Shown in pieces: positions 417 to 26,846 of a DNA stretch of 64,000 bases. Numbering within the stretch: position 1 is the stretch's first letter; the number at the start of each line of letters is the position of its first letter. The translations under genes and the position numbers were made by a program. The notes under the pieces were generated by a model. It did not search any database, was not told where the DNA came from, and saw only the letters and a program-made list of their open reading frames with translations. Location of the stretch: contig WIUZ02000012.1 in the NCBI GenBank assembly GCA_015956445.1, positions 62,001 to 126,000 of the forward strand, given 5' to 3'. The stretch comes from Thelephora terrestris (Eukaryota; Basidiomycota; Agaricomycetes; Thelephorales; Thelephoraceae).

Positions 417-669
417 TGTCAGCGTGCTGAATTTTATTCCCTTTTTGAACCATTTTTTTACACCCAACTTTCGCCCACTTTCCTTACCTATACCCTTTTC
501 TTATCTTATCATTTCCCTTATCACGACTCACACGTCATCAAGGAACACAGACAAGGACACTGATGATATTACACACGTGCGCGCAGCAAAGACACAAGAC
601 TACCAAACCGACGGAGTTGAATCCGCTCGGGCTCTATGGACGAGGACTAAGGCGTACAAACCCTAGTCG

Positions 670-3289
670 TCAAGACCTGGTCTGCCAGTACTCCTCAGCA
701 CTGGCAATCTCCTCCTCCGTCCCCTCCGAGGCACTCTCGACGGCTTCCTCGTTGACCATCTCGACGACCCGAGCTTCCTCCAGACGATGAGCTACGGCCA
801 GCTGAACCTCGGCGCGCAGGTGGTTCCTCGCTAAATCGACCGTAGTCTGATCCCGAGTCCTCTGGACTGACCAGCCCTCCACTCTCTCGGTCAGTTGAGC
901 CACCAGGCAAACGGCCTCCGCTGCACGCTGGACCGACAAGAGCGTAAGGTCGGTTAAGCCGTTCACGTCGACGGACTCCGCCGGAATCAGTTCGCCACGA
1001 TCCACGCGACACTGAAGCATCGTCGCATCGGAATAGGACAGTGGATTCAATGTCTCCACCCTGGCGGACGACGTTGGGATTACTGGGACACATGCGGTGC
1101 GCTGGACGAAGTGCCCCACGATAAGGAACCCAACGACGAGCACGGATAGACACTGGGGGCAAGGGGTGGTGTTCCGGTCCAGAACATTGCAAGTTCATTG
1201 CAAGGAAATGGACGATGAACCTGGCAAAAACCGACCCAGAACATCGCAAAGACATTCTGAATTTTCCAGGCCAATTTCTTTGCAGTGTTCTGGGACAGAA
1301 AATGGTCAGTACATTCACAGTGTTCCAGTAATGTTCCCACTAGGTAATCCATGGGTACATTCAGAATCTCCCCAAAGAAAGTAACCTTGATGTCGATGAT
1401 TGGCGCATTTACAATGTTCCTGGTCAGGAAAATTCAAAATGCGGCCAAACAATGTGTTTGCAGTGTTCCAGGGTGGTACATCCAGAATGTACTGGTGCCA
1501 TTGACTGCAATGTACTGAGTTTTGCAAACATCAGGAACACTGCAGGAACACTGCAAGGAAACTGGAAAAACTGGGAACATTTTGAATGAACTTGTGATGT
1601 TCCCAGTTTTTCCAGTTTTCTTGCAGTGTTCCTGACGTTTGCCGAACTCAGTACATCACAGTTGACAGTACCAGTACATTCTGGACGTACCACACTGGAA
1701 CACTGCAAAAACACTGTTTGGGTGCATTTTGAATTTTCCTGTCCAGGAAAATTGTAAATGCACCGATCGTCGACGTTGAGGTTACTTTCTTTGGGAAAAT
1801 TCTGAATGTACCCATGGGTTACCTAATGGGAACATCACCGGAACATTGTGAATGTACTGACCATTTTCTGTCCCAGAACACTGCAAAGAAATTGGCCTGG
1901 AAAATTCAGAATGTCTTTGCGATGTTCTGGGTCGGTTTTTGCCAGGTTCATCGTCCATTTCCTTGCAATGAACTTGCAATGTTCTGGACCGGAACACCAC
2001 CCCTTGCCCCCAGTGAGAACGTTGCCCATGCACTGGCGAGATCGACGGAGGCGGAATCGGAACAGCCACCTCGTTCTCCCCCACGTACTCCAACTCGGGA
2101 GAACTGCTAACCGGATTCACGGCCGTCTCCTCAGACGTCTCGCGGACGACCTCTTCCCCGCCATCGGTATGCGCCGGTGTACGGTACGAACCGTCGGAGG
2201 CTAAAAAGGATGTCAGTGGACAAGTCAAAATATGTCAACCGGCATCCCACCTATTGGGGAAGCCATCCGATCCGGGATCGACTCGTCTCTGGACTCGTCG
2301 CGTACCGCAGCTACCGAACGCGTATGGCAGTGACACAATCGCTCGCTCATGGACTCTACCCGAGCGCCCAGTAACAGCAAGGCATCATCCAACGTGTCAA
2401 CCTGAGAAGTGGCATGAGCTCTCTTGGACAAAGACCAGGAGAAGTCGCACCAACCTTGGTGTCCAGCTCATTCAGAGCCCTTCTATGACGGTTGAGCCGT
2501 CGATCGACCTCGATCAGGTCCCTCTGGATGGTGTCGTCCCTCTCCTTCAAGGATTCGACCAATCAATTATGTTCCTCCCGCATCGCCAGCATCTCGCTCT
2601 CGAACGTCACACGAAGCGTGTCGTTCATCAGGAGGAGCGTTTTCTTCATGTCCAACGCCTCCGAGTACATCCTACGGGCGTCGTCCTTTGCTTCCTTCAC
2701 CTCACGTTTCAGCCGCTCATTCTATAAGTCCATCAGTGTTATCCCACAAGCGGGATGCACAGACCGACTCACCGCTTTCTGTTCCGTCCTCAGTAGGAAC
2801 CAAAGGCGGTGACCCACAGCTGCTGTATAGTGTTGGGAGCGAGTCGCTCCAGGCCACCTTCCTTCTCCGTTTCCCAGGTCGTAGATTCCCATCTTCAGAA
2901 GATCCCACAACGATGACGCCACCGGAGTCTCCCATGGCATACGCAACTCGGTGTCAAATGTGACCCCGCGCATAGACTCCTGTAACTTGTGGTCAATCAA
3001 GTTGTGATACCACAACTCGTCATCCATGGTCAAGTAGTGGGGAGGCCTGGCGATCGTTGCCTCCAGTTGTCGAGCATCCACCTTATCAGCAACAGCAAAG
3101 ATCTACGATACAATGTCAGTTGTTGCCAGCAAACGGTGATACGTGACGTCACACCTCGCGATAACTGGGGTACGCCACGTTGGCGTTCGGAAGGAAGTAA
3201 CCCTTGTTCTGCACGGACCGAGGATCCGCGGACTCAATGGTAGCGGTGCTGTTCTCAGCACGGAAGACACGATCGGAGATCATGGGCAT
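670..3289 (-). CDS. Antisense U3 gene of family D, copy 1 (holds a palindromic insertion in a predicted intron)
   Basis: This minus-strand gene starts at MPMISDRVFR (3289) and runs left to about 670. A second copy lies at 43521-45270. Its second coding block (about 2723-3100) contains DDELW and GIYD words also found in the family A gene. The third is a helical, coiled-coil-like block beginning NERLKREVKEAK. The fourth carries a Cys-x-Cys pair, and the C-terminal part is Ser/Glu rich. Blocks are separated by gaps of about 50 bp with GT and AG ends. The palindromic element at 1151-2015 falls in the predicted last intron. Function is unknown. The copy looks decayed relative to copy 2. It is likely transcribed opposite to the LTR promoter, from its own upstream region near 3300-3420. 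Confidence 0.6.
1151..2015. mobile_element. Palindromic CACTA-like element 1 (865 bp)
   Basis: The two halves are near-perfect reverse complements over the whole length, with the centre near 1582. Ends are CACTGGGGGCAAGGGG and its complement. The 3-bp target AGA is duplicated (1148-1150 and 2016-2018). The matching empty site is seen in the other family D LTR near 44000, where GGATAGAACG is uninterrupted. The interior is built from short words around GTTCCAG and AACACTGCAA, different from the other palindromes. It encodes no transposase, so it is non-autonomous. CACTG ends with 3-bp duplications fit the CACTA/EnSpm superfamily; a KDZ-type element is an alternative I cannot exclude. Confidence 0.8.
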
Positions 3290-3441
3290 AGTGAATGAGT
3301 AGTTGGTTGGTAGGATTGTTGGCTTGAGAAGAAGGGAGTTTGAGGGATCCAACGGCCGGTTTGCACTACGCTTTATTCAACCACCGACAGCGCTCGCGCC
3401 CTATTCGCCATTGGATCGGCCCATCGTTTCACCGGCCCAGA

Positions 3442-4281
3442 CACTGGGGGCAAGGGGTCACTTACCCAGCGATTACATTGTGATTACATTGTGATTTTTT
3501 AGACAATGTATCCAGCCTGTGGCCAGGAGGTACATGCTGAGTTCTTTTAGAAAGGGCCCATCAATGTGACCACAATGTGGCCAGTGGGTCCATCTTGATC
3601 ACTTTTACAAAGTACCCATCAATTCAATCACAATATGCCCTGTGGGTCCATGCAGGATACATTGTAAAAGTATTCATCAAAGTGGCCACTGGGCACTTTG
3701 TGAAAGAAACCCCTGGGTTCTTTCACATTTTTGCTTACAATGTGTCCAGCATACACCTGAGCCACTCATTGAAAGTTCTTTCATAAAGTATCCAGCAATG
3801 TGTCCACAAAGTATTCAACCAGATACTCAATGGCTTCTTTGAGAGTTTGTTGTGAAATCCAACCACATCGAGAGTTCATTGTGAAAACATTGAGAAGAAC
3901 CCCCTGGGGATATTGTGGTCGCATTGCAGGGTACTTTTTGAAAGAACTCTCAATGAGTGGCTCAGGCACCAAGTAGGATAAATTGTAAATAATATTGTGA
4001 AAGAAAACCCTGGTTTCTTTCACAAAGTGCCCAGTGGCCACTTTGATGAATACTTTTACAATGTATCCTGCATGGACCCACAGGGCACATTGTGATTGAA
4101 TTGATGGGTACTTTGTAAAAGTGATCAAGATGGACCCACTGGCCACATTGTGGTCACATTGATGGGTTCTTTCTAAAAGAACTCAGCATGTACCTCCTGG
4201 CCACAGGCTGGATACATTGTCTAAAAAATCACAATGTAACCACAATGTAATCGCTGGGTAAGTGACCCCTTGCCCCCAGTG
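3442..4281. mobile_element. Palindromic CACTA-like element 2 (840 bp)
   Basis: This is a full-length inverted repeat with ends CACTGGGGGCAAGGGG and its complement, centred near 3861. The target AGA is duplicated at 3439-3441 and 4282-4284. The empty site GGCCCAGACTCCCC is present in the second D LTR at about 45415. Interior words (ACATTGTG, CACAATGT, TACCCATCAA) match the element at 39206-39987, so these two belong to one subfamily. It lies just upstream of the antisense gene start, where it could separate that gene from its promoter. Confidence 0.82.
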
Positions 4282-4582
4282 AGACTCCCCATACATTTGC
4301 TTCAGTCATTCAAGTCCCACTCGGTCTTTTGTTGTCCCGATCGGACGAGCTGACGCGTCGTCCTCTTATTGGTCAGTCTTCACATGTGATATTGTCCTTT
4401 GTCATTCCTTTCCCACACGATGTCATGACCCCTTTCTTATTCTCTCACGAACCCTGACCCATTAGTCATTCCTTTATTATTTCTATTCTCTGTTTCGGGC
4501 CGCTTACTGTCCCAGCTTACTCTCGGCCCTTCTTTGCTCCGAGTTATTATTAGATAGGATTATCTCTGTCCCGGCCGCTCTC

Positions 4583-4590
4583 CTATATAG
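4583..4590 (+). promoter_or_regulatory. Sense TATA box of LTR D copy 1
   Basis: CTATATAG lies in the only promoter-like context near the right end of the LTR, followed by a pyrimidine-rich stretch. The same box is at 45721-45728 in copy 2. It marks the probable U3/R boundary and shows that the retrotransposon reads plus, opposite to the embedded gene. Confidence 0.55.
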
Positions 4591-5174
4591 GTACCAGTAG
4601 AGTAGCTGAGGACTCCCCATCTTTGATATCTCGGGAAGTCCTCTTCTCCTTGCAGCATCGGTGTATTTGCTGTAGGCCACTGAAGAGCTTATCGAGTAAC
4701 TCTCTGAACACGTTCGCTCTCCTCTCTCTCTCAGCCTTGCATTAAGAATCGGCGAACGCGCTTACGAAAAGGAGTTCCTCGCCGCTCTCCTAATCAAGCA
4801 CCAGTTTGAGGCGCCATCCTCAGGCTCTTATCTCTGCCCTCAGAAGACAATAGGGATTGATCGGATAGAGGCTCGGCACTCCTGCTGTGAATTCGGACAA
4901 CCTACTGGAGAACGCTCGTCCATCGCGTTTTGGACCACGTAGACTTTGGGTGGATATAGGGAAGTCGTTCCCCCTTTGCCCCATTGTTTCTTGTTGGTTG
5001 GAGTTGTGACTCACCAACAGCACTGGTACCTGAAGGGCGAAGAGTGGCCCTGACATTGTTCTCATCTGATTTATCGGGTGTGAACTGGTCTCGTGCCAGA
5101 ACTTTGCGCCTCCCCGTCGCGCTCGTTCTCATCTGATATATTGGGTGCAAACTGCACCGGAACTCTGTGCCTCG

Positions 5175-5455
5175 TCAACAACACTGCTATCGCGTCGGAG
5201 ATTTGCTTCTGTCCGTGTTCGCCACCTGTCGGTTTACGCGGCTCTGGCTACTGTGGGTTTTGGGGGTTTCACCTCGTCAACGACGTTGCTATCTCGTCGG
5301 AGATTTGCTTCTGTCCGTGTTCACCGCCTGTCGGTTTACGCGGCTCTGGCTGCTGTGGGTTCTGGGGGCTTTCACCTCATCAACGACGTTGCTATCTCGT
5401 CGGAGGTTTGCTATAATCCGCGTTCACCGCTTTCGGTTACGCAGCTCCACCTCCC
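5175..5455 (+). repeat. Tandem repeat, unit about 102 bp, about 2.7 copies
   Basis: Units begin at about 5175, 5277 and 5380 with TCAACRACRYTGCTATC and repeat phrases such as TCGGAGATTTGCTTCTGTCC. The third unit is diverged and partial. All three frames stay open through it, which is a by-product of the repeat rather than evidence for coding. Confidence 0.75.
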
Positions 5456-5734
5456 GCTTTTCGCTCGTTTTCACCCTAATCATTAGGTGTGTGCAAACCT
5501 GTCTTGTGCAAGAACGTCAGCACTATGGGCTCTTGCCCCGTCAATAACACGATGTTTCTCTCCCTCACGGAGGAGTGGATCCATCTGCGTCGACCGCTTT
5601 AGGTCCTAGTGAATTGTGACTTACCAATTGTTTTGTAAAATATCTCACGGTGTCACTAGCACTTGTTCCCAAAAGCAGTCATATGGTATTGGAATCTAAG
5701 GGCCTCGAAATGATACATCATACATTACTACCGG
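5456..5734. other. Intergenic stretch, nothing recognised
   Basis: I see no gene, RNA or repeat signature between the tandem repeat and the end of the minus-strand host-like gene. Confidence 0.4.
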
Positions 5735-6507
5735 TCAGACCATATTGTAATCGCATGTGTAAATCTGTCCGTGGAGCCATCGATCAAAGTCAGTGTCTCT
5801 TCCAGGATTCTCAAGGCCCTCCCTAATTGTGAGGTGATCTCTCATCAACTTTAGCAGTGCACCGTTGACCTGAATGCCTAGCCTGTCGAAGCATGTATTA
5901 ACCCTCAGAGGGGGGGGGAACTCCACCTGTTCTTGGTCCGGCTGCTCAATCATTCCGATATTGACGTGGACCTAGGGAGCGAGGGGACCGTGAGTTTTCT
6001 TTTGAAATGGGGGAGCTGTTTGAGAATGTGCTTACAGCCCTGGTGTTCTGTGTGTCTAGTTGTTGGGTTCCATGCCAGTACACCCACAGCATTCTCACCC
6101 TCAAGAGGCCGTTCTCTCTCTCCTTTTCCATCTCTTCATCGGCTATGAAACCGTCTGGAAGCAAAACATGTCCAGGGCGATTCAAGTACTCTCCGAAGGA
6201 CCTTATGACGATTTCCCCCAACATCGAGGGATCTGTCACCACTGGCGCGGGATCGAAGACGAGGCGGATCTTCTCCCGGGTCCACAAATCTTCAACGCAG
6301 TGGATGGACGACACGGATAACTCTAGGGCTATCGCTGCGGTTCTACCAAGACTTCTACAGGCCTTTGTTGCGTGTCGCACCCGATACGTCAGCATCGCTC
6401 ATTAACAATGGTGCTGGACCTACCTGGAGCCAAGGAGCAGCGCCTTGGAAGCACCTTCGGAAGCCCTTCAACATCTCCACAAATTGTATTGTGGAGAGGA
6501 AGTTGGC
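5735..6507 (-). pseudogene. Host-like multi-exon gene, 3' part, cut off by the family C insertion
   Basis: This is the downstream part of a minus-strand gene whose middle lies at 20456-21677 and whose start lies at 24102-25641. Open blocks at about 5946-6395 and 5735-5953 contain protein-like sequence (LWTREKIRLVFDPAP, NRPGHVLLPDGF). The solo LTR C, with TTGGC duplicated at 6503-6507 and 20451-20455, sits in a coding block: the same frame is open on both sides once the insertion is set aside. The block just left of the junction ends at a good donor (CAG followed by GTAGGT). I do not recognise the family with confidence. As it stands the gene is separated from its 5' part by about 14 kb and is presumably dead. 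Confidence 0.5.
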
Positions 6508-6612
6508 TGTCACGAACGCGTGACATAGTAGCCAAGATCTCACAAATAATTCAAGACATTGGTCTCATTCGCAGTAATAATAATACAAAGGGAACTAAAA
6601 GGAACTACAAAC

Positions 6613-7516
6613 TTAGACAAGGACAAACGGATCGACATCACAAGAACAGTTCTGAGGAAGAGGGCAACGCTGAGCGAAGTGGTGAGGGTTGTGAATACTT
6701 TCAGGACAGTAGGACCACTCTCGCGTCACCGGATCCTGCCAACACTCCCTACACCCCAACACATCATGAGATAAACTATCATACATCTCTCGCCGCACGT
6801 CCGACAAGGCCTCGCTCACTAATGCGAACCCATAGCGGTCTTGGAGACCCGCCACCTCCACCTTCAACTTCATCCTCACCTGACGTGACTTGTCGGAGGG
6901 ACGACAACGTTGACCAGAACGAGTCATCGGACTCTTGCGGGTCTTCTTCCTTTGGGACCTCTCCACCATCTGGCGAACTGGGACAGGACTCCAGGGAGGG
7001 GATGGAGGGAGAGGAACGCCCTGATCCTGGCGGTGGCGAAGGGACGACTGGGGACTTGGAAGGGGGGTCGGTGCAATAAGCCCCGTGACATTGATGTCCG
7101 AAATATCGGAAGAGAGATGCCTGGAAAGGTCCCCAATGTTCCAGAGCAAAGTGAGAGAAGTCATCATTCAAGCCGTTCATGATGACGTACATGAGATCCA
7201 CCCGCTTCTCCAATTTCGCGATCCTATCCTCCCTATCCCTCTCCATGACGTCCAGTAACTGGACAGCTCCAGGGTGTAAAGCCCGGACCACAGGCCCAGA
7301 AAGTCTGGGATCTTCGTAACCGGCCTGTTCCCAGAACTCGGCAGGAGCGTTATGGGCGGTAAGGAAGTCGACGGCGACCTGATTGTCGTGGGCGATGTTG
7401 GCAGGAGTATCGTACAAGTGTTGCTCCATGTTGTAAGGAGCACCCGTCTCAAGAGACGGGGTGAAGGGGGTGGAAGCAGCGTTGAGGACGACATTGGCGG
7501 CAGCAAAAGCAGACAT
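6613..7516 (-). CDS. Antisense U3 gene of family C, copy 1
   Basis: Start at 7516 (MSAFAAANVV). The first block of about 140 residues has an EHLYDTPA-like segment, then a charged helical stretch (MERDREDRIAKLEKRVDLMY) likely to form a coiled coil, and ends near ALEHWGPF. A later block in another frame, probably reached through an intron I could not place, is proline-rich then basic. It ends in a Cys/His-rich tail with GCRECW, YCPE, HHFAQRC and CSC, all conserved in copy 2. The tail could bind zinc. There is no clear sequence match to the A/D genes, but position, strand and layout are the same. It is probably driven by an upstream promoter near 7600. Function unknown. Confidence 0.55.
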
Positions 7517-7717
7517 GGTAGCAGAGGATGGTAGAAGATAGTATTGGTGTTTGGTGGGAGTGGAAAAGAGACGATGAGGGAAACGATCATTAATCCCCCT
7601 GACTTAAATACATCCTGACTCAAGGAAAACCAGAAAGGGAAAACAAAAACCCATTATCCATTAACATCCCCATTAGGGTAAACGAACCCTCAACCCCAAT
7701 CGAGATCCCATCAATTC

Positions 7718-7755
7718 AGAGAAATCCCCATCGATCATGAGAAATCCCCATCACG
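7718..7755 (+). repeat. Short minisatellite in LTR C copy 1
   Basis: GAGAAATCCCCATCRATC-type units occur about twice in tandem here, with a diverged unit near 7780. Copy 2 of the same LTR has about four units at 54915-54998, so the array length varies between copies. Confidence 0.6.
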
Positions 7756-7954
7756 CTTCTATTGCTACCACGAAACACGAGAAATCCCCGAATGCTTCCA
7801 TTGACCCGCGCCCCTATTGTTCCCGTACGAGTAATTACTATCGGTCGTCCTAAGTCCCCTCATTCTGACTCATCCACCCTACCCTAAACTACGCACAGAC
7901 CATGTTGACTCTTGTTTGACTCGTTGTAGAATAATGACTCCTGTAGAGGATTGG

Positions 7955-7964
7955 GTATATAAGG
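7955..7964 (+). promoter_or_regulatory. Sense TATA box of LTR C
   Basis: GTATATAAGG is followed by a C/T-rich stretch (CTCCTTCTTTTCCCC) typical of fungal start regions. The equivalent in copy 2 is near 55191. It lies about 145 bp upstream of the plus-strand ORF that starts at 8109. Confidence 0.6.
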
Positions 7965-8108
7965 AAGAGCGTTCGCTCCTTCTTTTCCCCATTCTCAATC
8001 TCTTCTGTACTCCCCTAACCACAACCTGAATAAACAAAGTAAGCTGAGGAATTCTCCTCACGTCTTACTCTCTCTAACTCATTCAAGCAGGAATTCTCCT
8101 GCCAGTGT

Positions 8109-8588
8109 ATGTTCAGTCCCCCAAATCCTTTCCCCTCTATTAGTCCAGTCCAACGACCGAACGTCCCTGACGCCAGGAGATCTATCTGGGAGTATAAACT
8201 CATCAGGAGTCTCCAAGTAAACCGAACAGCCGGTTTACTCACCCATTTCCCTTATTACCGACCCTTTGCAGCCCTCGACGCCGGAGTCACCACTCCTCCT
8301 TTTCTCTTAGGAGCAGACCATCAATTCCTCTGGAATTCGGATCTTACGGAGAGCGTCCTTGCCACCGTTTACTTCAGTATCAGTCCAGCCTTTTATTTTC
8401 CTTCACCGCGTGTTCATCTAACCACAAATATCCATACCCACTCTCCTGCTATCATCGTCCTCTGGTGGGAAATCCCAACTGAATTACCTTATTCAGTTAT
8501 AGAATATCTCGTCAGTTTCGAACGTCTCAGCGACCAAGACTTTGAACCATTTGTGCAGCAGCTCAGTCAGTTCTGCCAAGACTATCAC
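8109..8588 (+). CDS. Sense ORF in the R/U5 part of LTR C, copy 1 (interrupted by the A element)
   Basis: The frame starts MFSPPNPFPS and contains RRSIWEYKL, RPFAALDA, GADHQFLW and PAIIVLWWEIP, all conserved in copy 2 (55348 onwards). The A-family element enters at 8589, and the rest of the LTR resumes at 20287-20450, where the same frame reaches its stop just before the LTR end. It is not gag, protease, RT or integrase that I can recognise. Conservation between two independent solo LTRs suggests it was a gene. It lies downstream of the LTR promoter, so it would be the first ORF on the element's own RNA. Confidence 0.55.
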
Positions 8589-8777
8589 TGTCAGGAACAT
8601 GGTATTTTAAAAAAAAAACTTTTTATAACACGCTCTTTCTTCGAACTCTTCTTACCACTTCTTATGTTTTGAATGCTTCACACTCCTTATCTTTCACACC
8701 AATCATTCGAAACACACACACGCGCGTACTATTCCCAGCGAATCCACAACGAGCTATACAAGTGCTATCCTACGTCC

Positions 8778-10518
8778 TCAAAAGTCGACTCTATCCACGG
8801 CAGGCCTGAAGGTCACCAAACGTCCATCCCGGAGATCGTAGTGCTGGCCCCTCCTCGCTAGGACCTCCCCGAACATGGCGTCACCATCTTCGGCACTCAG
8901 CTGAACGACTAGTTCAAGCCGATAGGAAGAGACTCCTTCGAGCGGACCGATCAGCCTCCCAGATGTCACCGAACTCTGGAACACCTGATCCCACATCGCC
9001 ATCACCGGGTGACTGCTCAACAGCACTATCGACGTAGTCGGCGAGCGACCCTCCGTCTCCCTCGTCGGACCCCTGGGTGGGATCCTGTCTTGCGAGTCGA
9101 AGCTGGTGGCGAAGCTGGATCTCCGACTCGACCTGTCGGTAGGGACGGTTGACCCGATAGCGGAACTCTCGTCCTCCACCTCGACCAGACTGGTCACCAT
9201 CCGACTCAACTGGTCGAGGATAGGGATTAGCCGATGGAGCCATGCGATGAGCAGGACGGCGTCGAGAGCGTTTGCAACGTTGCCCCTTAGTCACCGGACG
9301 TACCTCGGCAACCCTCGGAGCATCTTCGGCTCGGTCAACCTCCATGACCTCATCCTCGATCTTCACCAACTGATGGATCGGCTGCAAGACGCAGCGCCCA
9401 CAGTTCTCCTTGTCGGAAGCGGCCAAGGTGGAAGCCGGACCTGGTGTCGGAACGGGAACCGCGTTCTCGATCGGAGGCGTCGCATAGGACGACGGTTTAG
9501 GCGATGGCAGTACCACCTCGTCGGCGTACTCCAACTCGAACGGAACATCGGCTGTCCCCTGACCAACCAATTTGGGACCCTCCTTGCAGTTGCAGGTCTT
9601 ATCCTGCAAGGACTCGACCTGCGCTGTCAACACAGCCACCACGTTCTCGAGTTCTTCGGTCTAGGAAATGTCAGCTTCCATCATTCTAAAACAACGATGA
9701 AAGCGGCATTACCTTTTCATCCCTCCTGGCCAACGCACCCTTGATGTTGTTATCCCTGACCTTCAGACCGGCGATCAACTCTTGATGGTTGGCGACCATT
9801 GCCTCCAACGCCTCGTTCGTTCCTTGTTGGAAGGCTGCCAAGGTCTCCTTCATCTGAAGACCCTCCGCCGACAGACGAAGAACGTCTGCCTTCGCCTCTT
9901 TCACCTCGCGCTCCAAACGTTCAACCTAGGCAGTTTGATTAGTCGAGAGTCATACTCGAATATTCAAACGGAGAACCGACCTTGCTCTCCCCCTCCCGAA
10001 CGAGCGACCACAACAACGACGTGGCGGCAGTGGCATGGCGGACGGCCCGAGGAACGGTTGCCCCGTGCTCCAACAGGTCCTGGTCGTAGATCCCCCTCTG
10101 AAGGGTGTACCAGAGCTCCTTCTTGATCGGATGCTCCAGCTCCCCGAATCTACCCCTCATCCGGAAGGCTACCTTCTCGGCGATGATTGTACGGACCCAG
10201 AGCTCATCGTCCCAGGTCAACCCCATTAAATGAGGCATGGTCTCCCTGAGACGTTCGGGGTCCACTTCCGTGACGACCTCCAAGATCTAGAAGCCGTTAG
10301 CTGGACATCAACGCCCCAAAGAACGTAACCTCTACCTAGAGGAAGGCGTTAGTGCTAGCACAGAAAGCTCTAGGTCTCCCCCATACCTGGTCATCCGTGG
10401 TATAGGGAGTCCCTGCTGCACAGGCGTAGGACTTGCGGGCAGCGGCACGACGGTCGATGCGAGAGATGGTAGAGATACCATTGGCGACTTTGTAGGTATG
10501 GTTGTTGGGGAAGGACAT
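8778..10518 (-). CDS. Antisense U3 gene of family A, in the 5' LTR
   Basis: Start at 10518 (MSFPNNHTYK). Coding blocks run leftwards: an N-terminal 44 residues; about 100 residues with DDELW, RFGELEHPIKKELW and GIYDQDLLEHG; a helical block beginning VERLEREVKEAK, probably coiled coil; then a block with CNC and CGRC cysteine pairs and an acidic Ser/Pro region; and a C-terminal block ending FRPAVDRVDF at 8778. Introns with GT/AG ends, about 50-100 bp, separate the blocks and agree in phase, giving about 479 residues; positions are worked out in the copy at 61660-63398. An in-frame alternative without the last intron would end at 8914. It looks whole. It probably has its own promoter near 10590. 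No known domain recognised. Confidence 0.7.
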
Positions 10519-10585
10519 GTTTTGGTAAGATGATGGGGAAGTTGCTGGTGTTGCTGATCAAGGATGGCTTCAAGAAGACGTCCTT

Positions 10586-10591
10586 CTTATA
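10586..10591 (-). promoter_or_regulatory. TATA-like box for the antisense gene of LTR A
   Basis: On the minus strand the sequence reads CTATAAGAAGG about 70 bp before the ATG at 10518, followed by an A/C-rich leader. A CACGTG box lies further upstream (about 10606). The same arrangement occurs in the other A LTRs, for example near 61588. Confidence 0.5.
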
Positions 10592-11418
10592 GCCTAGATC
10601 GGTGATCCTTCACGTGACCTACCTCGACGAACCTCATTGGTCCGGGTCACATCAACTTCCGCCCCTGTACCATCATCGTTGGCTTACTACATCAAGCTGA
10701 CACCTCGGCCCGCGGGACGGCCTTGGAAGAACTTCGTTCCGGAACGCTTAGAACGCGCGCGCACTAAAAATAGGTCTCAAGACCCTGATGACCCCTTTAT
10801 GACATCACGAGCCCCTTTTACGACCCCTCATGACTTTACGATTACGATCAACCCTGGACCCTGATCACACACGTGGACAGTCACATCACAGTCTCCTAAC
10901 CGGAGGAAGGACTCGCCGCTATTCGGAAGCATCGCCTTAGGATCCTTCTGGTTAGCCCAGCGCATGTGGAGTAGCCGTTAGCGTGAAACGCCGGCGAATC
11001 TGTAATCCCTCATGTCCCATGAGTCTAGGCCCGACCTCCTCATGTTCGGACGTACGTTGAGGTTGCCACTAGTCCGTGATGCTGTTACCGCCTACAGACA
11101 ACAAGGGATGTTTGCATGGCTCTACTCCCGAATCCGCTGGTACAACTATGTAAAGGGAGATTGCCACCTGACCCTTGGGTGTGGTCCCCAGGTACGAACT
11201 TTCATGACCCCATGCCCCTTTTCCTTTTTGGACTAGTGTTATCTTTACCCCTATGTTTCATGCGGACATTCCTTATCTTTTATGCAATCCTTCACACGCT
11301 AGTAAGGCCCTTTGTCCTTCATTCTCCCACGCGTCACCTTTGTTCGCTTCCCTTACTTAGCGTTCTCACACTCCTTATCTCCCTTTGTTCTGGACTTGAT
11401 AAGGGTATATTAGGGTAT

Positions 11419-11487
11419 TGACGTCATGGCCACTCCTTTAGTATAAGTAGCAACTGTGGCTGTATCGTAGTACCTTAGTTTTGTTAC
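11419..11487 (+). promoter_or_regulatory. Sense promoter and predicted RNA start of LTR A
   Basis: TGACGTCA, a perfect CRE/ATF-type palindrome, is at 11419-11426. A TATA-like GTATAAG is at 11441-11447, and CCTTAGTTTTGTTACC lies about 33 bp further on. TAGTTTTGTTAC (11476-11487) is the exact complement of the sequence just inside the 5' LTR, which places the RNA 5' end here by analogy with Tf1. The module recurs in the other A LTRs. Confidence 0.6.
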
Positions 11488-11897
11488 CTCAGGAAATCCT
11501 CTGCCCTTCTCAGCCCAGTTGCAGTTAAGGACAAGTCAGAGTTTCTTGTTTGATCCAAGACATCCCCCATCTGCTCTCCCTCCCGCTCTGCGCGTCAACT
11601 GCGCCTCGTAACTATAGACTCTCAGCAGTCATATTAGAACACCTCGAGCGTCCAGTCGATCAACTGGTGGAGTCATCAATCCTGTTGTAGGGATCAACCC
11701 TTGCTTGTTAAACCGAACAAAGTACGGTTTAGGTTGGGTTTCTCTTTAGGATTTCGACCTGACTTGTAGTGACCTCGGACAACCTACCGGAAGAATAGAG
11801 ACGTGATCGTTCTCTCACAAGCTAGTCGGACTAGTGAGTACTCTGCGGAGTCGGCTCAGTGCACTGGTAGTTGTTGGGGTAGAGTGGCCCTGACAGA

Positions 11898-11909
11898 GTA
11901 ACAAAACTA
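11898..11909 (+). other. Putative self-priming primer-binding site
   Basis: GTAACAAAACTA begins 2 nt inside the 5' LTR and is a perfect 12-nt reverse complement of 11476-11487, the predicted 5' end of the element's RNA. I see no match to a common tRNA 3' end. In the Tf1/sushi group the RNA 5' end folds back onto a similar site to prime reverse transcription; this is inferred here from complementarity only. Confidence 0.65.
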
Positions 11910-12345
11910 CCAGCCGGTACCTTGTTCACCCACCACATCGCGAAGCTCTCACTGTTGCTTAAAGACGGACAACCATTTCGTCTAACAGAAGAAGACTTCG
12001 GCCCCCTGTCTCAGGAGAGGAATCAGATTCGTCTACAGAAGACACCCCTCAAAGGCGTCGTACACAGCCTTCACCCTCTCAACCCTCTTTACAACGTCTC
12101 TCATCTCCAGCTGAAGCTCGAGCGTACCGTGCTACTCTCGCTTCAAACAGCTCAACTCTATTATCTCGTTTCACCCCTCGCATTCCCTCCTTTCAATCAA
12201 CTCCTACTTCGCAGTCCCCTCTTAACACCCCTGTCCCACGACAACTCGCTCTTCTCCCCTCTTCTTCACAACTTTCAGATCTACCTGGAGGTTTCCTTGA
12301 CGACGACAAGCGGTTGATATCACCAAACCACAAGCCTTCTTCCAT

Positions 12346-13107
12346 TTGAAGCAAAACACGTTTCCAACCTTTCGCACGCAACTCCTTATGCGCGAAAAAC
12401 CTCCTACCACTTACGATGAGTGGAAAGACGCGTTGATTCAAATGCAAGAACAGCTAGACTCGACTAGGGAATATGACAGGCACGAATACGGAAATAGTTT
12501 TGGAAAGAACACTCAACACCAAAACTACCAACCTTCCACTGTCAAAGGTTACGGACCTATGCAAGTCGACGCCATGCGCCAACAACCCCGAGTCATTCTA
12601 CGTCGACCACAGTCCAAACCTCCTGTCAGAGCCGCACACCCTCGTCTAGCTCCTTATCCTACTGGTGGAAATCTCAAACCGTCATCTTCCTCGAAGAAAC
12701 CGAATCCCTCCAAACCCTCTGGATCCAAACCCCCTCCTCGAAAAGTCATTTGTTACGCCTGTAACCAACCTGGCCATTACGCTAGGAATTGCACGGCCAA
12801 CATTCGACAGTTGGACTCCACCCATGTTCAACAACTAGAGCACGCTCTAGAATACATCTATGGCATCCAAGGTTTTGGACAAGAAGGGAACGACGAATAC
12901 GAATTGGAAGATCCCTTGGCAGCATTCGAAGAAGCAGGAGTGTTTGACAACGAAGAAGAAGCAGAAGAAGAAGAAAATCTTATTGACTTGGAAGAAGAAC
13001 CGTTGGCTCGATCCCAGGAGCCCCGAATTATGGACCAGATATGGGACAAGAAGACCAGGAGTCTTTTTAGATGGACAAACCGGACAGACAACACCGGCGA
13101 GTCTTGA
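12346..13107 (+). CDS. gag (C-terminal region with zinc knuckle) of the family A element
   Basis: This frame of about 253 residues holds a basic, proline-rich linker, then a CCHC zinc knuckle CYACNQPGHYARNC (12751-12792, about residues 136-149), then an acidic Glu-rich tail. In Ty3/gypsy elements Gag forms the particle and the knuckle binds the element's RNA. The region from the LTR to 12346 is probably also gag-derived, but gag looks incomplete. Its end overlaps the pol frame, and pol is in a different frame, as is common in this family, which often relies on ribosomal frameshifting. Confidence 0.75.
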   Translation: MKQNTFPTFRTQLLMREKPPTTYDEWKDALIQMQEQLDSTREYDRHEYGNSFGKNTQHQNYQPSTVKGYGPMQVDAMRQQPRVILRRPQSKPPVRAAHPRLAPYPTGGNLKPSSSSKKPNPSKPSGSKPPPRKVICYACNQPGHYARNCTANIRQLDSTHVQQLEHALEYIYGIQGFGQEGNDEYELEDPLAAFEEAGVFDNEEEAEEEENLIDLEEEPLARSQEPRIMDQIWDKKTRSLFRWTNRTDNTGES

Positions 13108-16100
13108 ATTTTCTCAGATTGCGGACGATACCCCTATGCTCCCCTCATTTCCTGAATCACATGTACTTTTAGCATCTCTTAAGCAGCGAATCGAATCTGC
13201 TTTCCCACTCTCATTGCATCCCCTCGCCGCTCTCGAAAATCAAAAAGTTGTCAACAGAACATCGTCACGACTCTCACGACTATTCCCCATGATCAAACTG
13301 CAGATTGCAGTTTCATCTGACGAAATTTACGACATCGAAGCCCTCCTTGATTCTGGCGCAACCGCCACCTACATTTCACGCTCATTTGTTCAAGATCATG
13401 CCCTCTCTACTCGAAAGCTCACTACCCCCATCTATGCCATCAATGCAGACGACACGTTCAACGCCACCACCATTACCCATCAGACGAAGCTTACCCTTAG
13501 TTTCAAAGGACACATTTCTACCGAATGGTTCCTTGTCACCGACATAGGCACCAAGACTATGATTGTCGGTATGACATGGTTACGAACCCACAATCCGGAA
13601 ATCGATTGGCGAACAGGACAAGTCTTGTTCACCAGATGTCCTTCCTCATGCATCGCTCATCAATCTCTATCCGACGTTCTACCCTCTGCACTTGACTACG
13701 CTTCGGTTATCACGGAATACTCCTCCCAATTCGATATCAATCGCATCGCTCACTCTATCAATGCCAAAGAAAACGCCGCTATGCGTTGGGCTATAGACGA
13801 CTTGAAGAACAAGAAAGTCCTTACCATCGAAGACATTCGAAAAGGACCACTCAAGGCGTATGCGGATGTATTCGAAGAAATGACCTATCAAGAGTTACCC
13901 CCACACCGAAAATGGGATCACAAAATCGAGCTAGTACCCGATTGGGAATCACAGCTTTGGAAACCACATACCTATCCCCTTTCCTACGACGAACAGAAGG
14001 AACTCGATATCTTCATCGAAGAAAACCTCGCAAATGGTCGAATCCGTCGTTCGGAGTCTCCCTTGGCATCCCCCGTCTTCTTTATCAATAAGAAGGATGG
14101 CAAGAAACGAATGGTTATCGATTACCGAAGACTCAATGACATCACCAAAAAGAACGCCTACCCCCTTCCTCGTATTGACGAGCTTATCCAGAAATGGAAA
14201 GGCTGTCTGTACTTCTCTGCCCTCGACATTCGCTCTGGATACTACAATGTCCGAATGCGCGAAGGCGACGAATGGAAAACTGCGTTCACCACCAACCGAG
14301 GACTCTTCGAATCCCTCGTCATGACGTTTGGACAGTGCAATGCTCCTGCCACTTTCCAGACCATGATGGACTCTATCTTCATCGTTCAGATACGACGAGG
14401 TGATACGGGAACCTTCATCGATGACATAGGCATCGGAACCTCCTACGATCCACGGAAGCTCCTCAGTCCCGAAGAATTTCATCTCTCTGTTCTTAAAGAA
14501 ATCTTCCAGCTTTGCCGAGAACACAAACTGTCCCTTAAACCGGAAAAGTGTGTTATCATGCAGAAAGAGATTCCTTATCTAGGACATTACATCTCGGGCA
14601 AAGGAATCCGTCCAGACCCTGTCAAACTCGCAGGAATTACTGATTGGCCAGTACCCACTACCGTTTCCGAGCTACGAGCCTACTTAGGCATCATGAGCTA
14701 CTACCGCCGTTTCATCCCTGGCTTCTCCATCATTGCACGACCTCTCAACGACCTTTTACGAAAAGACGCTCCCTGGAAATGGGAAACTCCTCAACAAGAC
14801 GCCTACCAAAAGTTGAAGGACCTCCTCCTTCATGAAGCCTTTCTCCTTCATCCAGACAACGAGAAACAGTTCATTCTCGAAACGGACGCTTCAGGTTATG
14901 CCTGGGGTGCTGTTTTGTCACAGCAAGATGACGAAGGAAAATGGCGACCAATTGGCTGTCTTTCTCAAGGTTTCACAGATCCGGAGACGCGTTACGACAC
15001 TCACGACCGAGAACTCCTATCTATTATCCGCGCACTGGAGGCTTTCCATCACTTCCTTATGGGAACCAAATTCCCCATCACCATCCTTAACGATCACAAC
15101 AACCTTCAGTACTTCAAAACGAAACGAAAACTGTCCAAGCGACAGGCACGTTGGTCACAGATCTTGGCCAACTATTACTTCGAATTTCGTTATCGACCAG
15201 GCAGACAATCATCTGTCCCTGACCATCTCTCTCGTCGCGCAGACCACGTCCCAAAGGATGTACCCGACGAAGAACAAATCCTCCTACCTCCTTCCCTCTT
15301 CAAAGACAACTTCGAAGCACAGAAGATCAATTCGGTCATCACTGAAACCCTCAACGAGCGAAACTTTGGAAAAGAAATTGCCATCGCTCAATCACAGGAT
15401 CCACTTATCCAAGGATTCAACACGATGACTGAAAGTCAACTGTCTTCCGAAATTGACGGTCTACCCAACGGTTGGGCTTTACTAGGCGAACTATGGACCT
15501 ATCGTGGCAAGATCTACGTTCCATCCCTCCTACGCTCAGAAGTATTCCAGCAGTTGCACGCTTTAGGACCTGCAGCTCATCCCGGAATCAAAGGCAGTCT
15601 AGAAGTCATACAGAGAGACTTCTATTGGCCACTGATGCGGACAGAAATCAAGGAACGAGTTCAGAACTGCCACGTATGCCAAACTCAGAAGAACCGAAAT
15701 CAGAAGCCCCATGGACTCCTCAAACCTATTGACGTTACACCAGGGTTTTGGGAAGTCGTCACCACCGATCTGATCACAGGTCTTCCTCCTTGCCAAGGCT
15801 ACAATTCGGTCGTTACCTATACCGATAAACGAGGCAAGATGAAACACGTCGCCCCCACCGTTGATACCCTTGATACTAGTGGTTTTGCCAAGTTATACCT
15901 AGAGAACGTTTGGAAACGTCATGGTACCTCCAAGAAGATCATCACTGATCGAGGTCCCCAAATGTCCTCACGATCTTTTAGGGAGATTTGCAAACAACTA
16001 GGTGTGGAACTTGCTCTGTCTACTGCTTATCATCCACAGACCGATGGACAATCGGAACGAACCAACCAAGAAGTCGAACAGGCCCTTCGAACAGTCATAT

Positions 16101-16954
16101 CCTATCATCAAGACGATTGGGTCGACTGGATCCCTGTTATCGAATTCGCTCTCAACAACCGTTATCATTCTGGTCTCAAGACCACGCCTTTCTATGCGAA
16201 TTACGGTTATCACCCTCACATTGGTTCCCTTCCTCGAGTTCAATCTCCCATCGATTCAGTCGAAGACTTCGTATCTCACCTTCACGAGGTGCAGAAACAA
16301 ACGGAAGAGTCTTTGACTAAAGCAGCAGAAGATATGAAGAAGTTCTACGATCGTCATCGGAACAAGACCCCCGAATTCAATGTTGGAGACAAGGTCCTCT
16401 TGGACAATTCAGACCTAGCTTTGAACCGTCCTTCTCGAAAGCTATCAGAGCGATACTCTGGTCCTTTTGAGATTACCGAGAAAATTGGCACACATGCTTA
16501 TCGACTCAAGCTACCCCTTTATTGGAAGAACGTTCATTCAGTCTGGAATGTCTCCAAGATATTCCCCTATCATGAAGATCCTCTTAACCCCAATCATCCT
16601 CGTCCACCTCCTGATATCATCGAAGGCGAACCAGAATGGGAAGTAGAGAAGATCCTCGATGCCAAGTTTTTACATGGTAACCTCAAATACCTCGTTAAGT
16701 GGTTAGGCTGGCCGGACACCGAAAATTCTTGGGAAGATGAAGACAACCTCGAGAATTCCCCAGAACTAATTGCTGAATTCTACAAGCAGTTCCCAGGCGC
16801 ACCACGACGACTACCTGATGGCACAATGTCAGGCAAACCCGTTACCACCCGGAAGAAACGCGGCAGGAAGAGGATAGGCCTTTTAGATCATCGGCCCATG
16901 ACAATTCATACCGACGTTCAAAAATGGCCTATTGGATCATTGACTAGGGACTAG
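12860..16954 (+). CDS. pol: protease, reverse transcriptase, RNase H, integrase, chromodomain
   Basis: One open frame of 1,364 residues; the true N-terminus is probably nearer the end of gag. Approximate order: aspartic protease with LLDSGATATYIS (about 160); RT with YPLPRIDEL, FSALDIRSGYY and the catalytic FIDDI (about 520); RNase H starting ETDASGYAWGAVLS (about 675); integrase zinc region H-x-H-C-C with HPGIKG and CHVCQ (about 900-940); integrase core with TTDLITG, TDRGPQ and the Glu in DGQSERTNQ (about 969, 1029, 1065); then a chromodomain, EWEVEKILDAK to YLVKWLGW and SWEDEDNL (about 1260-1310). The chromodomain puts it among chromoviruses, whose integration is steered to methylated-histone chromatin. 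It looks whole. Confidence 0.93.
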   Translation: MASKVLDKKGTTNTNWKIPWQHSKKQECLTTKKKQKKKKILLTWKKNRWLDPRSPELWTRYGTRRPGVFLDGQTGQTTPASLEFSQIADDTPMLPSFPESHVLLASLKQRIESAFPLSLHPLAALENQKVVNRTSSRLSRLFPMIKLQIAVSSDEIYDIEALLDSGATATYISRSFVQDHALSTRKLTTPIYAINADDTFNATTITHQTKLTLSFKGHISTEWFLVTDIGTKTMIVGMTWLRTHNPEIDWRTGQVLFTRCPSSCIAHQSLSDVLPSALDYASVITEYSSQFDINRIAHSINAKENAAMRWAIDDLKNKKVLTIEDIRKGPLKAYADVFEEMTYQELPPHRKWDHKIELVPDWESQLWKPHTYPLSYDEQKELDIFIEENLANGRIRRSESPLASPVFFINKKDGKKRMVIDYRRLNDITKKNAYPLPRIDELIQKWKGCLYFSALDIRSGYYNVRMREGDEWKTAFTTNRGLFESLVMTFGQCNAPATFQTMMDSIFIVQIRRGDTGTFIDDIGIGTSYDPRKLLSPEEFHLSVLKEIFQLCREHKLSLKPEKCVIMQKEIPYLGHYISGKGIRPDPVKLAGITDWPVPTTVSELRAYLGIMSYYRRFIPGFSIIARPLNDLLRKDAPWKWETPQQDAYQKLKDLLLHEAFLLHPDNEKQFILETDASGYAWGAVLSQQDDEGKWRPIGCLSQGFTDPETRYDTHDRELLSIIRALEAFHHFLMGTKFPITILNDHNNLQYFKTKRKLSKRQARWSQILANYYFEFRYRPGRQSSVPDHLSRRADHVPKDVPDEEQILLPPSLFKDNFEAQKINSVITETLNERNFGKEIAIAQSQDPLIQGFNTMTESQLSSEIDGLPNGWALLGELWTYRGKIYVPSLLRSEVFQQLHALGPAAHPGIKGSLEVIQRDFYWPLMRTEIKERVQNCHVCQTQKNRNQKPHGLLKPIDVTPGFWEVVTTDLITGLPPCQGYNSVVTYTDKRGKMKHVAPTVDTLDTSGFAKLYLENVWKRHGTSKKIITDRGPQMSSRSFREICKQLGVELALSTAYHPQTDGQSERTNQEVEQALRTVISYHQDDWVDWIPVIEFALNNRYHSGLKTTPFYANYGYHPHIGSLPRVQSPIDSVEDFVSHLHEVQKQTEESLTKAAEDMKKFYDRHRNKTPEFNVGDKVLLDNSDLALNRPSRKLSERYSGPFEITEKIGTHAYRLKLPLYWKNVHSVWNVSKIFPYHEDPLNPNHPRPPPDIIEGEPEWEVEKILDAKFLHGNLKYLVKWLGWPDTENSWEDEDNLENSPELIAEFYKQFPGAPRRLPDGTMSGKPVTTRKKRGRKRIGLLDHRPMTIHTDVQKWPIGSLTRD

Positions 16955-16961
16955 TCAATCC

Positions 16962-16974
16962 AGGAAGAGGATAA
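16962..16974 (+). other. Polypurine tract
   Basis: AGGAAGAGGATAA ends directly at the 3' LTR (16975). Purine-rich sequence in this position primes plus-strand DNA synthesis in LTR retroelements. Confidence 0.8.
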
Positions 16975-19900
16975 TGTCAGGAACATGGTATTTTAAAAAA
17001 AAAACTTTTTATAACACGCTCTTTCTTCGAACTCTTCTTACCACTTCTTATGTTTTGAATGCTTCACACTCCTTATCTTTCACACCAATCATTCGAAACA
17101 CACACACGCGCGTACTATTCCCAGCGAATCCACAACGAGCTATACAAGTGCTATCCTACGTCCTCAAAAGTCGACTCTATCCACGGCAGGCCTGAAGGTC
17201 ACCAAACGTCCATCCCGGAGATCGTAGTGCTGGCCCCTCCTCGCTAGGACCTCCCCGAACATGGCGTCACCATCTTCGGCACTCAGCTGAACGACTAGTT
17301 CAAGCCGATAGGAAGAGACTCCTTCGAGCGGACCGATCAGCCTCCCAGATGTCACCGAACTCTGGAACACCTGATCCCACATCGCCATCACCGGGTGACT
17401 GCTCAACAGCACTATCGACGTAGTCGGCGAGCGACCCTCCGTCTCCCTCGTCGGACCCCTGGGTGGGATCCTGTCTTGCGAGTCGAAGCTGGTGGCGAAG
17501 CTGGATCTCCGACTCGACCTGTCGGTAGGGACGGTTGACCCGATAGCGGAACTCTCGTCCTCCACCTCGACCAGACTGGTCACCATCCGACTCAACTGGT
17601 CGAGGATAGGGATTAGCCGATGGAGCCATGCGATGAGCAGGACGGCGTCGAGAGCGTTTGCAACGTTGCCCCTTAGTCACCGGACGTACCTCGGCAACCC
17701 TCGGAGCATCTTCGGCTCGGTCAACCTCCATGACCTCATCCTCGATCTTCACCAACTGATGGATCGGCTGCAAGACGCAGCGCCCACAGTTCTCCTTGTC
17801 AGAAGCGGCCAAGGTGGAAGCCGGACCTGGTGTCGGAACGGGAACCGCGTTCTCGATCGGAGGCGTCGCATAGGACGACGGTTTAGGCGATGGCAGTACC
17901 ACCTCGTCGGCGTACTCCAACTCGAACGGAACATCGGCTGTCCCCTGACCAACCAATTTGGGACCCTCCTTGCAGTTGCAGGTCTTATCCTGCAAGGACT
18001 CGACCTGCGCTGTCAACACAGCCACCACGTTCTCGAGTTCTTCGGTCTAGGAAATGTCAGCTTCCATCATTCTAAAACAACGATGAAAGCGGCATTACCT
18101 TTTCATCCCTCCTGGCCAACGCACCCTTGATGTTGTTATCCCTGACCTTCAGACCGGCGATCAACTCTTGATGGTTGGCGACCATTGCCTCCAACGCCTC
18201 GTTCGTTCCTTGTTGGAAGGCTGCCAAGGTCTCCTTCATCTGAAGACCCTCCGCCGACAGACGAAGAACGTCTGCCTTCGCCTCTTTCACCTCGCGCTCC
18301 AAACGTTCAACCTAGGCAGTTTGATTAGTCGAGAGTCATACTCGAATATTCAAACGGAGAACCGACCTTGCTCTCCCCCTCCCGAACGAGCGACCACAAC
18401 AACGACGTGGCGGCAGTGGCATGGCGGACGGCCCGAGGAACGGTTGCCCCGTGCTCCAACAGGTCCTGGTCGTAGATCCCCCTCTGAAGGGTGTACCAGA
18501 GCTCCTTCTTGATCGGATGCTCCAGCTCCCCGAATCTACCCCTCATCCGGAAGGCTACCTTCTCGGCGATGATTGTACGGACCCAGAGCTCATCGTCCCA
18601 GGTCAACCCCATTAAATGAGGCATGGTCTCCCTGAGACGTTCGGGGTCCACTTCCGTGACGACCTCCAAGATCTAGAAGCCGTTAGCTGGACATCAACGC
18701 CCCAAAGAACGTAACCTCTACCTAGAGGAAGGCGTTAGTGCTAGCACAGAAAGCTCTAGGTCTCCCCCATACCTGGTCATCCGTGGTATAGGGAGTCCCT
18801 GCTGCACAGGCGTAGGACTTGCGGGCAGCGGCACGACGGTCGATGCGAGAGATGGTAGAGATACCATTGGCGACTTTGTAGGTATGGTTGTTGGGGAAGG
18901 ACATGTTTTGGTAAGATGATGGGGAAGTTGCTGGTGTTGCTGATCAAGGATGGCTTCAAGAAGACGTCCTTCTTATAGCCTAGATCGGTGATCCTTCACG
19001 TGACCTACCTCGACGAACCTCATTGGTCCGGGTCACATCAACTTCCGCCCCTGTACCATCATCGTTGGCTTACTACATCAAGCTGACACCTCGGCCCGCG
19101 GGACGGCCTTGGAAGAACTTCGTTCCGGAACGCTTAGAACGCGCGCGCACTAAAAATAGGTCTCAAGACCCTGATGACCCCTTTATGACATCACGAGCCC
19201 CTTTTACGACCCCTCATGACTTTACGATTACGATCAACCCTGGACCCTGATCACACACGTGGACAGTCACATCACAGTCTCCTAACCGGAGGAAGGACTC
19301 GCCGCTATTCGGAAGCATCGCCTTAGGATCCTTCTGGTTAGCCCAGCGCATGTGGAGTAGCCGTTAGCGTGAAACGCCGGCGAATCTGTAATCCCTCATG
19401 TCCCATGAGTCTAGGCCCGACCTCCTCATGTTCGGACGTACGTTGAGGTTGCCACTAGTCCGTGATGCTGTTACCGCCTACAGACAACAAGGGATGTTTG
19501 CATGGCTCTACTCCCGAATCCGCTGGTACAACTATGTAAAGGGAGATTGCCACCTGACCCTTGGGTGTGGTCCCCAGGTACGAACTTTCATGACCCCATG
19601 CCCCTTTTCCTTTTTGGACTAGTGTTATCTTTACCCCTATGTTTCATGCGGACATTCCTTATCTTTTATGCAATCCTTCACACGCTAGTAAGGCCCTTTG
19701 TCCTTCATTCTCCCACGCGTCACCTTTGTTCGCTTCCCTTACTTAGCGTTCTCACACTCCTTATCTCCCTTTGTTCTGGACTTGATAAGGGTATATTAGG
19801 GTATTGACGTCATGGCCACTCCTTTAGTATAAGTAGCAACTGTGGCTGTATCGTAGTACCTTAGTTTTGTTACCTCAGGAAATCCTCTGCCCTTCTCAGC

Positions 19901-20281: not shown

Positions 20282-20455
20282 ATCACTCGCCCGTCCACCC
20301 ATATCAAACAGAGTCACCTCTCTCTCTTGATATCCCTCCTCCTCTCACCTCTACGCCCGGGACCCCCTTCAAAACCAGACCCGACACCCCCCATCCATCT
20401 GCTAATCCTCTAGCGCCCCACAAACAGTAAGCAGGCCTACAACCCTGACATTGGC

Positions 20456-26798: not shown

Positions 26799-26846
26799 TG
26801 ACTCAACTCCTGAGTCGTGGAAGGGGCGTGGCATTTGGTATATAAC
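26799..26846 (+). promoter_or_regulatory. Promoter of the family B antisense gene
   Basis: TGACTCA (26799-26805) and an inverted TGAGTC nine bases on form a Gcn4/AP-1-type pair. TATATAACC (26839-26846) follows, about 60 bp before the ATG at 26905. The same arrangement is present in the B copies near 23500, 37390, 40750, 50640 and 63900, so it is a conserved promoter of the embedded gene and not of the retroelement. Confidence 0.65.

Follow-up and report, generated by a model that had tools for sequence, protein, structure and literature searches.

Candidate spliced accessory genes antisense within the long terminal repeats of Thelephora terrestris retrotransposons

A multi-block open reading frame at 8778–10518 lies inside a long terminal repeat (LTR), on the strand opposite to the genes of the retrotransposon that carries it. 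Is this frame a protein-coding gene, does it belong to the LTR itself, and what might its product do? The window, that is, the whole 64-kb stretch of DNA that was analysed, is a nest of LTR elements and occupies positions 62001–126000 of contig C4 in a 40.6-Mb assembly. Two of the gene products, one from LTR family A and one from family B, find their best matches in Thelephora terrestris hypothetical proteins that are 94–97% identical over 96–100% of the length. Gene-bearing places in the window number six for family A, six for family B, two for family C and two or three for family D. The resulting tally of 16 or 17, which takes in fragments and treats each split copy as one, matches the 16 places counted in the original prediction. 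Rfam and tRNA scans over the window returned no matches. The window also holds a repeat (5448–6507) directly left of the D copy, which recurs at 98% identity in six or more further genomic places, and three short elements bounded by long inverted terminal repeats (3442–4281, 39205–39988 and 56421–57339), two of which sit inside LTR copies. Between B copies, 33462–34436 gives a weak protein-kinase match under the Pfam cut-off and is perhaps a fragment of a host gene.

Family A is represented at 8589–20281 by a full-length Ty3 chromovirus with 3307-bp LTRs. Its parts are as follows:

8589–11895, + strand: 5′ LTR, TGTCAGG..CCTGACA, 3307 bp, one difference from the 3′ LTR; target duplication (TSD) ATCAC at 8584–8588
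10586–10591, − strand: TATAAG in the promoter of the antisense gene, preceded by CCAAT and CACGTG; predicted transcription start near 10555–10560; diversity minimum at 10509–10868
11442–11447, + strand: TATAAG box of the element promoter, R start at ~11476; diversity minimum at 11349–11588
11898–11909, + strand: self-priming PBS, 12 nt, complementary to 11476–11487 (LTR positions 2888–2899)
12301–13104: frame with a CCHC knuckle (gag)
12851–16951, + strand: pol frame with protease, RT, RNase H, integrase, Tf2-1-like SH3 and chromodomain
16975–20281, + strand: 3′ LTR, with a second gene copy inside at 17164–18904 (− strand); other TSD copy at 20282–20286

As in other Ty3/Metaviridae chromoviruses, RT, RNase H, integrase and chromodomain share one pol frame, and the LTR pair has TG..CA ends and a 5-bp TSD. 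The PBS begins two bases past the 5′ LTR, and its complement within the LTR lies ~30 bases downstream of the element's TATAAG box. This self-priming match of the Tf1 type (12 nt in A, 11 nt in C) puts the start of R in A at ~11476; since the gene occupies LTR positions 190–1930, it lies wholly in U3, opposite gag-pol. Diversity along the A LTR falls to two minima, one at the gene promoter and one at the element promoter, and the TATA-like box that had been predicted for the gene is borne out in A by a conserved gene promoter with TATAAG. The internal region of this copy (11896–16974) measures 5079 bp, compared with ~6.0 kb in four full-length copies on contigs C1, C11, C12 and C56, a difference that appears to begin in the gag region.

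The A gene reads on the minus strand through five exons:

10387–10518, − strand: exon 1, ATG at 10518
9981–10286, − strand: exon 2, predicted helical
9713–9925, − strand: exon 3, coiled coil
9304–9660, − strand: exon 4, end of the coiled coil and a low-confidence part; runs on in frame to stop 8914 when intron 4 is kept
9210–9303, − strand: intron 4, optional; donor GTACGT and acceptor CCAG in all 25 copies
8778–9209, − strand: exon 5, second frame, 479-codon form, stop 8778; public models such as P0008
61660–63398, + strand: third complete copy of the gene

The predicted limits proved exact: the ATG at 10518 and the fully spliced stop at 8778 are joined by four GT/AG introns into 479 codons. 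The predicted intron layout stands as regards its GT/AG ends and whole codons, and needs amendment in that intron 1 varies among models and the last intron is optional. Intron 1 is a single 100-nt intron in models P0002 and P0022; P0008 has two ~50-nt introns flanking a 6-nt exon. The full frame is open in 27 of the 33 copies that cover at least 80% of the gene (26 without an exon indel, one with an in-frame loss of 21 nt), and the four GT/AG pairs are all present in the 26 indel-free copies; the other six are truncated, split by an insertion or interrupted by stops. Copies were drawn from the window, from neighbouring stretches and from the 40 candidates that scored highest among 635 in a first-look search, so that old decayed copies are under-represented, and they include both LTRs of two elements. 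First-look candidates for the other families number 305 for B, 291 for C and 392 for D, the last figure taking in another repeat. Within the 25-LTR set used for pN/pS, 18 were presumed solo from the absence of a partner among the best 40 of 635. The chained row W_60260 was dropped from later statistics, and seven of the 33 copies lie outside the 26-copy codon-position statistics.

Open frames might arise by chance in a GC-rich LTR and resemble exons. The strand opposite to the gene has long open frames too, so length alone is no proof. Constraint at the codon level separates the two strands. Pooled pN/pS over A exons 1–4 is 0.078 (25 copies), compared with 1.37 and 1.19 for the sense-strand shadow frames over the same gene, which carry stops in 13/25 and 20/25 copies, and with 1.6 and 4.2 for shifted-frame controls, which carry stops in 25/25. 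Diversity in A exons 1–4 gathers at third positions; exon 3, for example, has values of 0.035, 0.003 and 0.178 at codon positions 1, 2 and 3, and exon 5 as spliced is flat (0.046, 0.070, 0.067). The gag of six A elements shows a codon-position pattern like that of the antisense gene. Low ratios recur in C (0.085 over exons 1–3 in six copies, two of them with stops; 0.052 in exon 4), in the D antisense exon 1 (0.160, nine copies) and in the B gene (0.152, 12 copies), with C1 aligned without its inserts and rows W_6508 and W_54073 left out of the D statistics. The comparison of synonymous with non-synonymous change that the original prediction had proposed thus tells strongly against chance. Together with the codon-position pattern, the pN/pS of 0.05–0.16 in main exons, the almost complete lack of exon indels among close copies and a family C homologue with the same introns, and given that shadow frames fail the same tests, it rules out chance frames, whose probability we put at next to nothing; that the gene is real we regard as close to certain. 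Third codon positions in A copies are ~3x more diverged than LTR non-coding DNA, likewise outside CpG, and gag shows the same excess relative to the leader, so the excess is element-wide. CpG decay was rejected as its cause, since it persists at non-CpG sites.

In A, variants confined to a single copy comprise 118 synonymous and 66 non-synonymous changes and no stops. In B they are near neutral (112 synonymous, 129 non-synonymous, six stops), as in decaying solo LTRs, which would place selection in the source lineages; B variants shared among copies number 183 synonymous, 62 non-synonymous and two stops. On these counts, the B pattern reads as post-insertion decay of solo LTRs superimposed on selection in source lineages. 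Gene conversion among copies could alternatively keep the genes intact. Since a trans-acting product would benefit every copy, selection on it would require cis preference or host-level effects.

Family C carries a comparable gene:

43272–46193, + strand: C LTR copy, its sense strand read off a complete C element (contig C5)
43521–45270, − strand: C gene, exons 45270–45136, 45083–44754, 44702–44436, 44383–44233 and from 44183, the last with optional intron 44016–43953
414–5055, + strand: second C copy, TSD TTGTT, interrupted by two insertions, with an in-frame stop in the gene

The full-length C element on contig C5 has the 11-nt self-priming match, and its gene is antisense too. The A and C proteins share 32% identity over A residues 1–243 (BLASTP E 1.2e-30; hhalign probability 99.3%), and three introns, all in phase 0, lie at equivalent aligned places in the two genes. 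Judged from these alignments, the A and C genes are homologous, so that a single gene family spans two families of LTRs. When the genome was searched with C exon 2, 138 of the 150 matches scored, out of 569 candidates, had no stop.

Copies of families B and D lie elsewhere in the window:

26211–28628, − strand (from a candidate promoter): B solo LTR, TSD GCGTT
26905–28165, + strand: B gene, exons 26905–27091, 27146–27480, 27535–27606 and 27659–28165; 366 aa
6508–20450, + strand (weakly suggested): D solo LTR (6508–8588 and 20287–20450), TSD TTGGC, split by the entire A element
6613–7516, − strand: D antisense gene with an optional 70-nt intron (7190–7121); 245 aa when kept (stop 6779), 277 aa when removed (stop 6613)

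The candidate element promoter of B consists of TATATATA and a match to the A R start, unchanged in 12 of 12 copies, and this TATA plus R-start block would make the B gene antisense. For D, a right end resembling the U5 ends of A and C weakly suggests the same orientation. The prediction that the genes lie antisense in U3 is therefore seen directly in A and C, and extends to B by way of its probable promoter and, faintly, to D. Pairwise hhalign comparisons of A with B, B with C, and those involving D (its profile built from two chimeric public proteins) gave probabilities below 7%. The further claim of a single gene class accordingly holds for A and C, on homology and shared introns; B and D resemble them in layout, yet no homology could be demonstrated, and their genes are either very diverged members or separate acquisitions. 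To judge from their ratios (0.15 and 0.16), the B and D genes appear to be under constraint as well. The D LTR also has a sense-strand frame near its right end (8109–8588 and 20287–20427; ~206 aa), split here by the nested A element. This frame has a pN/pS of 0.055 and is stop-free in nine copies, the mark of what looks to be a second LTR gene, on the strand opposite to the antisense gene.

Family B documents persistence of the gene in solo LTRs. Its gene is open in 8 of 12 copies, with the ATG and splice dinucleotides kept in all 12, and the genome has 222 matches to the B 5′ end (one for a control pattern), that is, more than 200 copies. A search for a full-length B element with the predicted PBS pattern, three mismatches allowed, matched eight places, all A-type; no complete element turned up for either B or D. 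Two adjacent B copies on contig C7 were considered as an LTR pair and rejected; their separate TSDs make them two solo LTRs. All eight B copies with inspected flanks are solo, each with its own 5-bp TSD, and seven of these carry an open gene, as expected if the gene is left behind in solo LTRs. That it belongs to the LTR, a second expectation of the original prediction, agrees with its presence in each of the two LTRs that flank full-length A and C elements, its conserved promoter and its gag-like codon pattern.

The 3′ end of the A gene can be read in two ways. With intron 4 kept, the frame ends at stop 8914 (465 aa), and the intron encodes a conserved basic peptide, stop-free in 24/25 copies, with a pN/pS of 0.097. 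The intron-retained reading is constrained from 9303 to ~8962 (0.33), and its last 15 codons are unconstrained (2.3); the spliced frame is unconstrained over 9209–8961 (1.03) and constrained from 8960 to its end (0.26, 0.31). Public A gene models include both C-terminal types. The last intron of C has the donor GTGCGT in 5/6 copies and CCAG in 6/6, with pN/pS of ~0.5–0.6 past it in either reading, and D has its 70-nt GTACGT..CCAG intron in 9/9 copies. In D, exon 1 and the tail have diversities of 0.101 and 0.085, the intron and the frame overlap only 0.022 and 0.028; these low values in the intron and overlap read as a double-coding signature. In C, diversity is lower in the frame overlap (0.082 versus 0.12–0.14) but not in the intron (0.152), and in A there is no drop in either intron 4 or the overlap, which argues against double coding in A. 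Openness of the second C-terminal frame is by itself non-significant (shuffle P 0.26 in A, 0.22 in C and 0.31 in D). Retention of intron 4 may be a regulated switch. It is tempting to go further and picture the LTR as a self-contained cassette in which a conserved splice switch toggles two overlapping frames. In A and C a basic segment resembling a nuclear signal would be gained or lost, giving nuclear and non-nuclear forms of a coiled-coil regulator, and hundreds of solo LTRs would act as a family dosage sensor; we consider this picture speculative, with the odds against it.

The A protein starts with a basic N terminus, followed by a helical part and a long coiled coil, and its tail is poorly structured. 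AlphaFold places one long helix at residues 127–240 in A and 104–220 in B (pLDDT mostly 60–89); outside the coiled coil the models are poor (mean pLDDT 46 and 48), with little else confident. The long coiled coil makes it probable that the modelled protein forms oligomers. The B protein is laid out as in A and C, with a basic start, helices, a coiled coil that ends near Cys and a short LV.I.DEV.E motif. Pfam searches returned no family above the cut-off, the weak matches being mostly generic coiled coils; bZIP_1 matched the coiled-coil part of P0008 at E 0.52, with 10.9 bits against a cut-off of 27.6, and for four A and B proteins (P0008, P0001, P0073 and P0088) PF04195 is absent even when E values up to 1 are admitted. 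In the public T. terrestris annotation, at least 71 protein clusters match A and 73 match B, and a C-type cluster has 51 members; the A and C-type searches scored the 8000 candidates sharing most words. Outside T. terrestris, the relatives found are metagenome proteins, mostly 64–92% identical over 20–25% of the first query. Eleven of the 12 examined start within exon 4 in the intron-retained frame, as proteins predicted from DNA should, and the twelfth (P0174) has the other C-terminal frame after an unrelated start; the exon 3–exon 4 junction occurs in none of the 12.

Our best explanation of these sequence data, with a probability of roughly 0.6, is an LTR-resident, spliced antisense accessory gene that has its own promoter and is kept by protein-level selection. 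On this reading, U3 would house a second, independent transcription unit, whose transcription and in vivo splicing we infer, and the retrotransposon would own an accessory gene retained through selection on its protein. The product would be an oligomeric coiled-coil protein, presumably active in the nucleus, and may regulate the expression or silencing of the element in trans, in the way that HBZ works for HTLV-1 and that has been suggested for plant Retand antisense proteins. The likeliest role is that of a nuclear accessory protein that forms oligomers and influences, in trans, how its own element is expressed, although we rate it slightly below an even chance. Each insertion brings two copies of the gene and a solo LTR retains one; because the gene lies inside the LTR, its dosage would track family copy number.

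Other roles and origins can be weighed against this reading. The product might serve in structure or replication, as a Gag-like protein or an RNA chaperone; the coiled coil and the invariant C244, C306 and C309 (C242 is nearly invariant) would be in keeping with a role in particles or in nucleic-acid binding. Yet a frame with a Gag-type CCHC knuckle already lies inside the element, solved-structure matches are weak and are read as coiled-coil likeness (best E 0.28 for A; a GCN4 fusion at E 0.007 for B), and an antisense location with its own promoter would better fit a regulator, so we think a structural role unlikely. Spliceosomal introns in a retroelement gene might instead point to a cellular gene that an ancestral LTR took up and that benefits, or is kept by, the host, the antisense position shielding its introns through retrotransposition. 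In three protein searches, however, every named relative is from T. terrestris (among the 8000 most word-sharing candidates scored for A and C-type), and the 150 of 569 C exon 2 candidates that were scored include no diverged single-copy relative, all being at least 84% identical; a host origin of this kind seems to us quite improbable. A narrower proposal casts the gene specifically as an anti-silencing factor or as a copy-number brake working by negative feedback. Its position means that dosage would grow with the LTRs left behind, but neither sign of effect has direct support, and we regard the proposal as possible though doubtful.

Tf1/sushi-type chromoviruses are self-priming, with a chromodomain pol and a PBS complementary to the R start; Tf1 LTRs are short and are not known to contain an antisense gene. 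The elements described here have a Tf1-like chromodomain pol (A) and self-priming (A and C), but their 2.9–3.3-kb LTRs are mostly filled by the antisense gene. The sag gene of MMTV, an animal retrovirus, is an open frame in U3 on the sense strand and encodes a membrane superantigen; the U3 location is common to sag and the A and C genes, and strand and product differ. The HBZ gene extends beyond the LTR into internal sequence, and its antisense transcript is spliced. HBZ of HTLV-1 is described as an antisense gene initiated in the 3′ LTR and as a bZIP factor acting on the viral LTR. Unlike HBZ, the A gene has its promoter, exons and stop all in U3, and its product has no bZIP match above the cut-off. 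One account places HBZ in the nucleus (PMC11963269).

Plant elements offer a second parallel. All or most copies of Retand (TRP28, PF04195), Grande and RIRE2 are described as carrying an antisense aORF, which is situated between pol and the 3′ LTR, and the Grande product is cited as nuclear (PMC11963269). Like the A and C genes, these aORFs are antisense to gag-pol (PMC11963269). They occur once per element and are presumably lost in solo LTRs, whereas the A gene is wholly in U3; Retand elements are, moreover, non-chromovirus plant elements, as opposed to the fungal chromoviruses here, and PF04195 is not matched. What the A and C genes appear to share with HBZ and the plant antisense proteins is orientation and probable logic, rather than a defining domain or, for the plants, position. 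Among fungal chromodomain elements, crapaud of Podospora anserina has subfamilies that differ mainly in U3; its LTRs are 339–443 bp long with a divergent U3 half of <200 bp, and the available text of the source mentions no U3 gene (PMC10787394). In the open-access literature searched, we encountered no gene lying antisense within an LTR. That LTR elements can have antisense accessory genes is already known; a spliced version in fungal chromoviruses, wholly in U3, doubled in each element and retained by solo LTRs, is one that we did not encounter in that literature.

The usual view of LTRs grants them no role beyond that of promoter and terminator, and takes solo LTRs for inert remnants. In T. 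terrestris, a protein gene under selection lies in the LTR of two related families at the least, and probably of four, so that solo LTRs can be promoter-bearing copies of a gene. Well over a hundred 'hypothetical protein' clusters of this species match LTR genes. Divergence among LTR copies is then not simply neutral, which bears on the dating of insertions. The genes may represent a fungal, intron-containing counterpart to the regulators that deltaretroviruses and plant elements encode in antisense.
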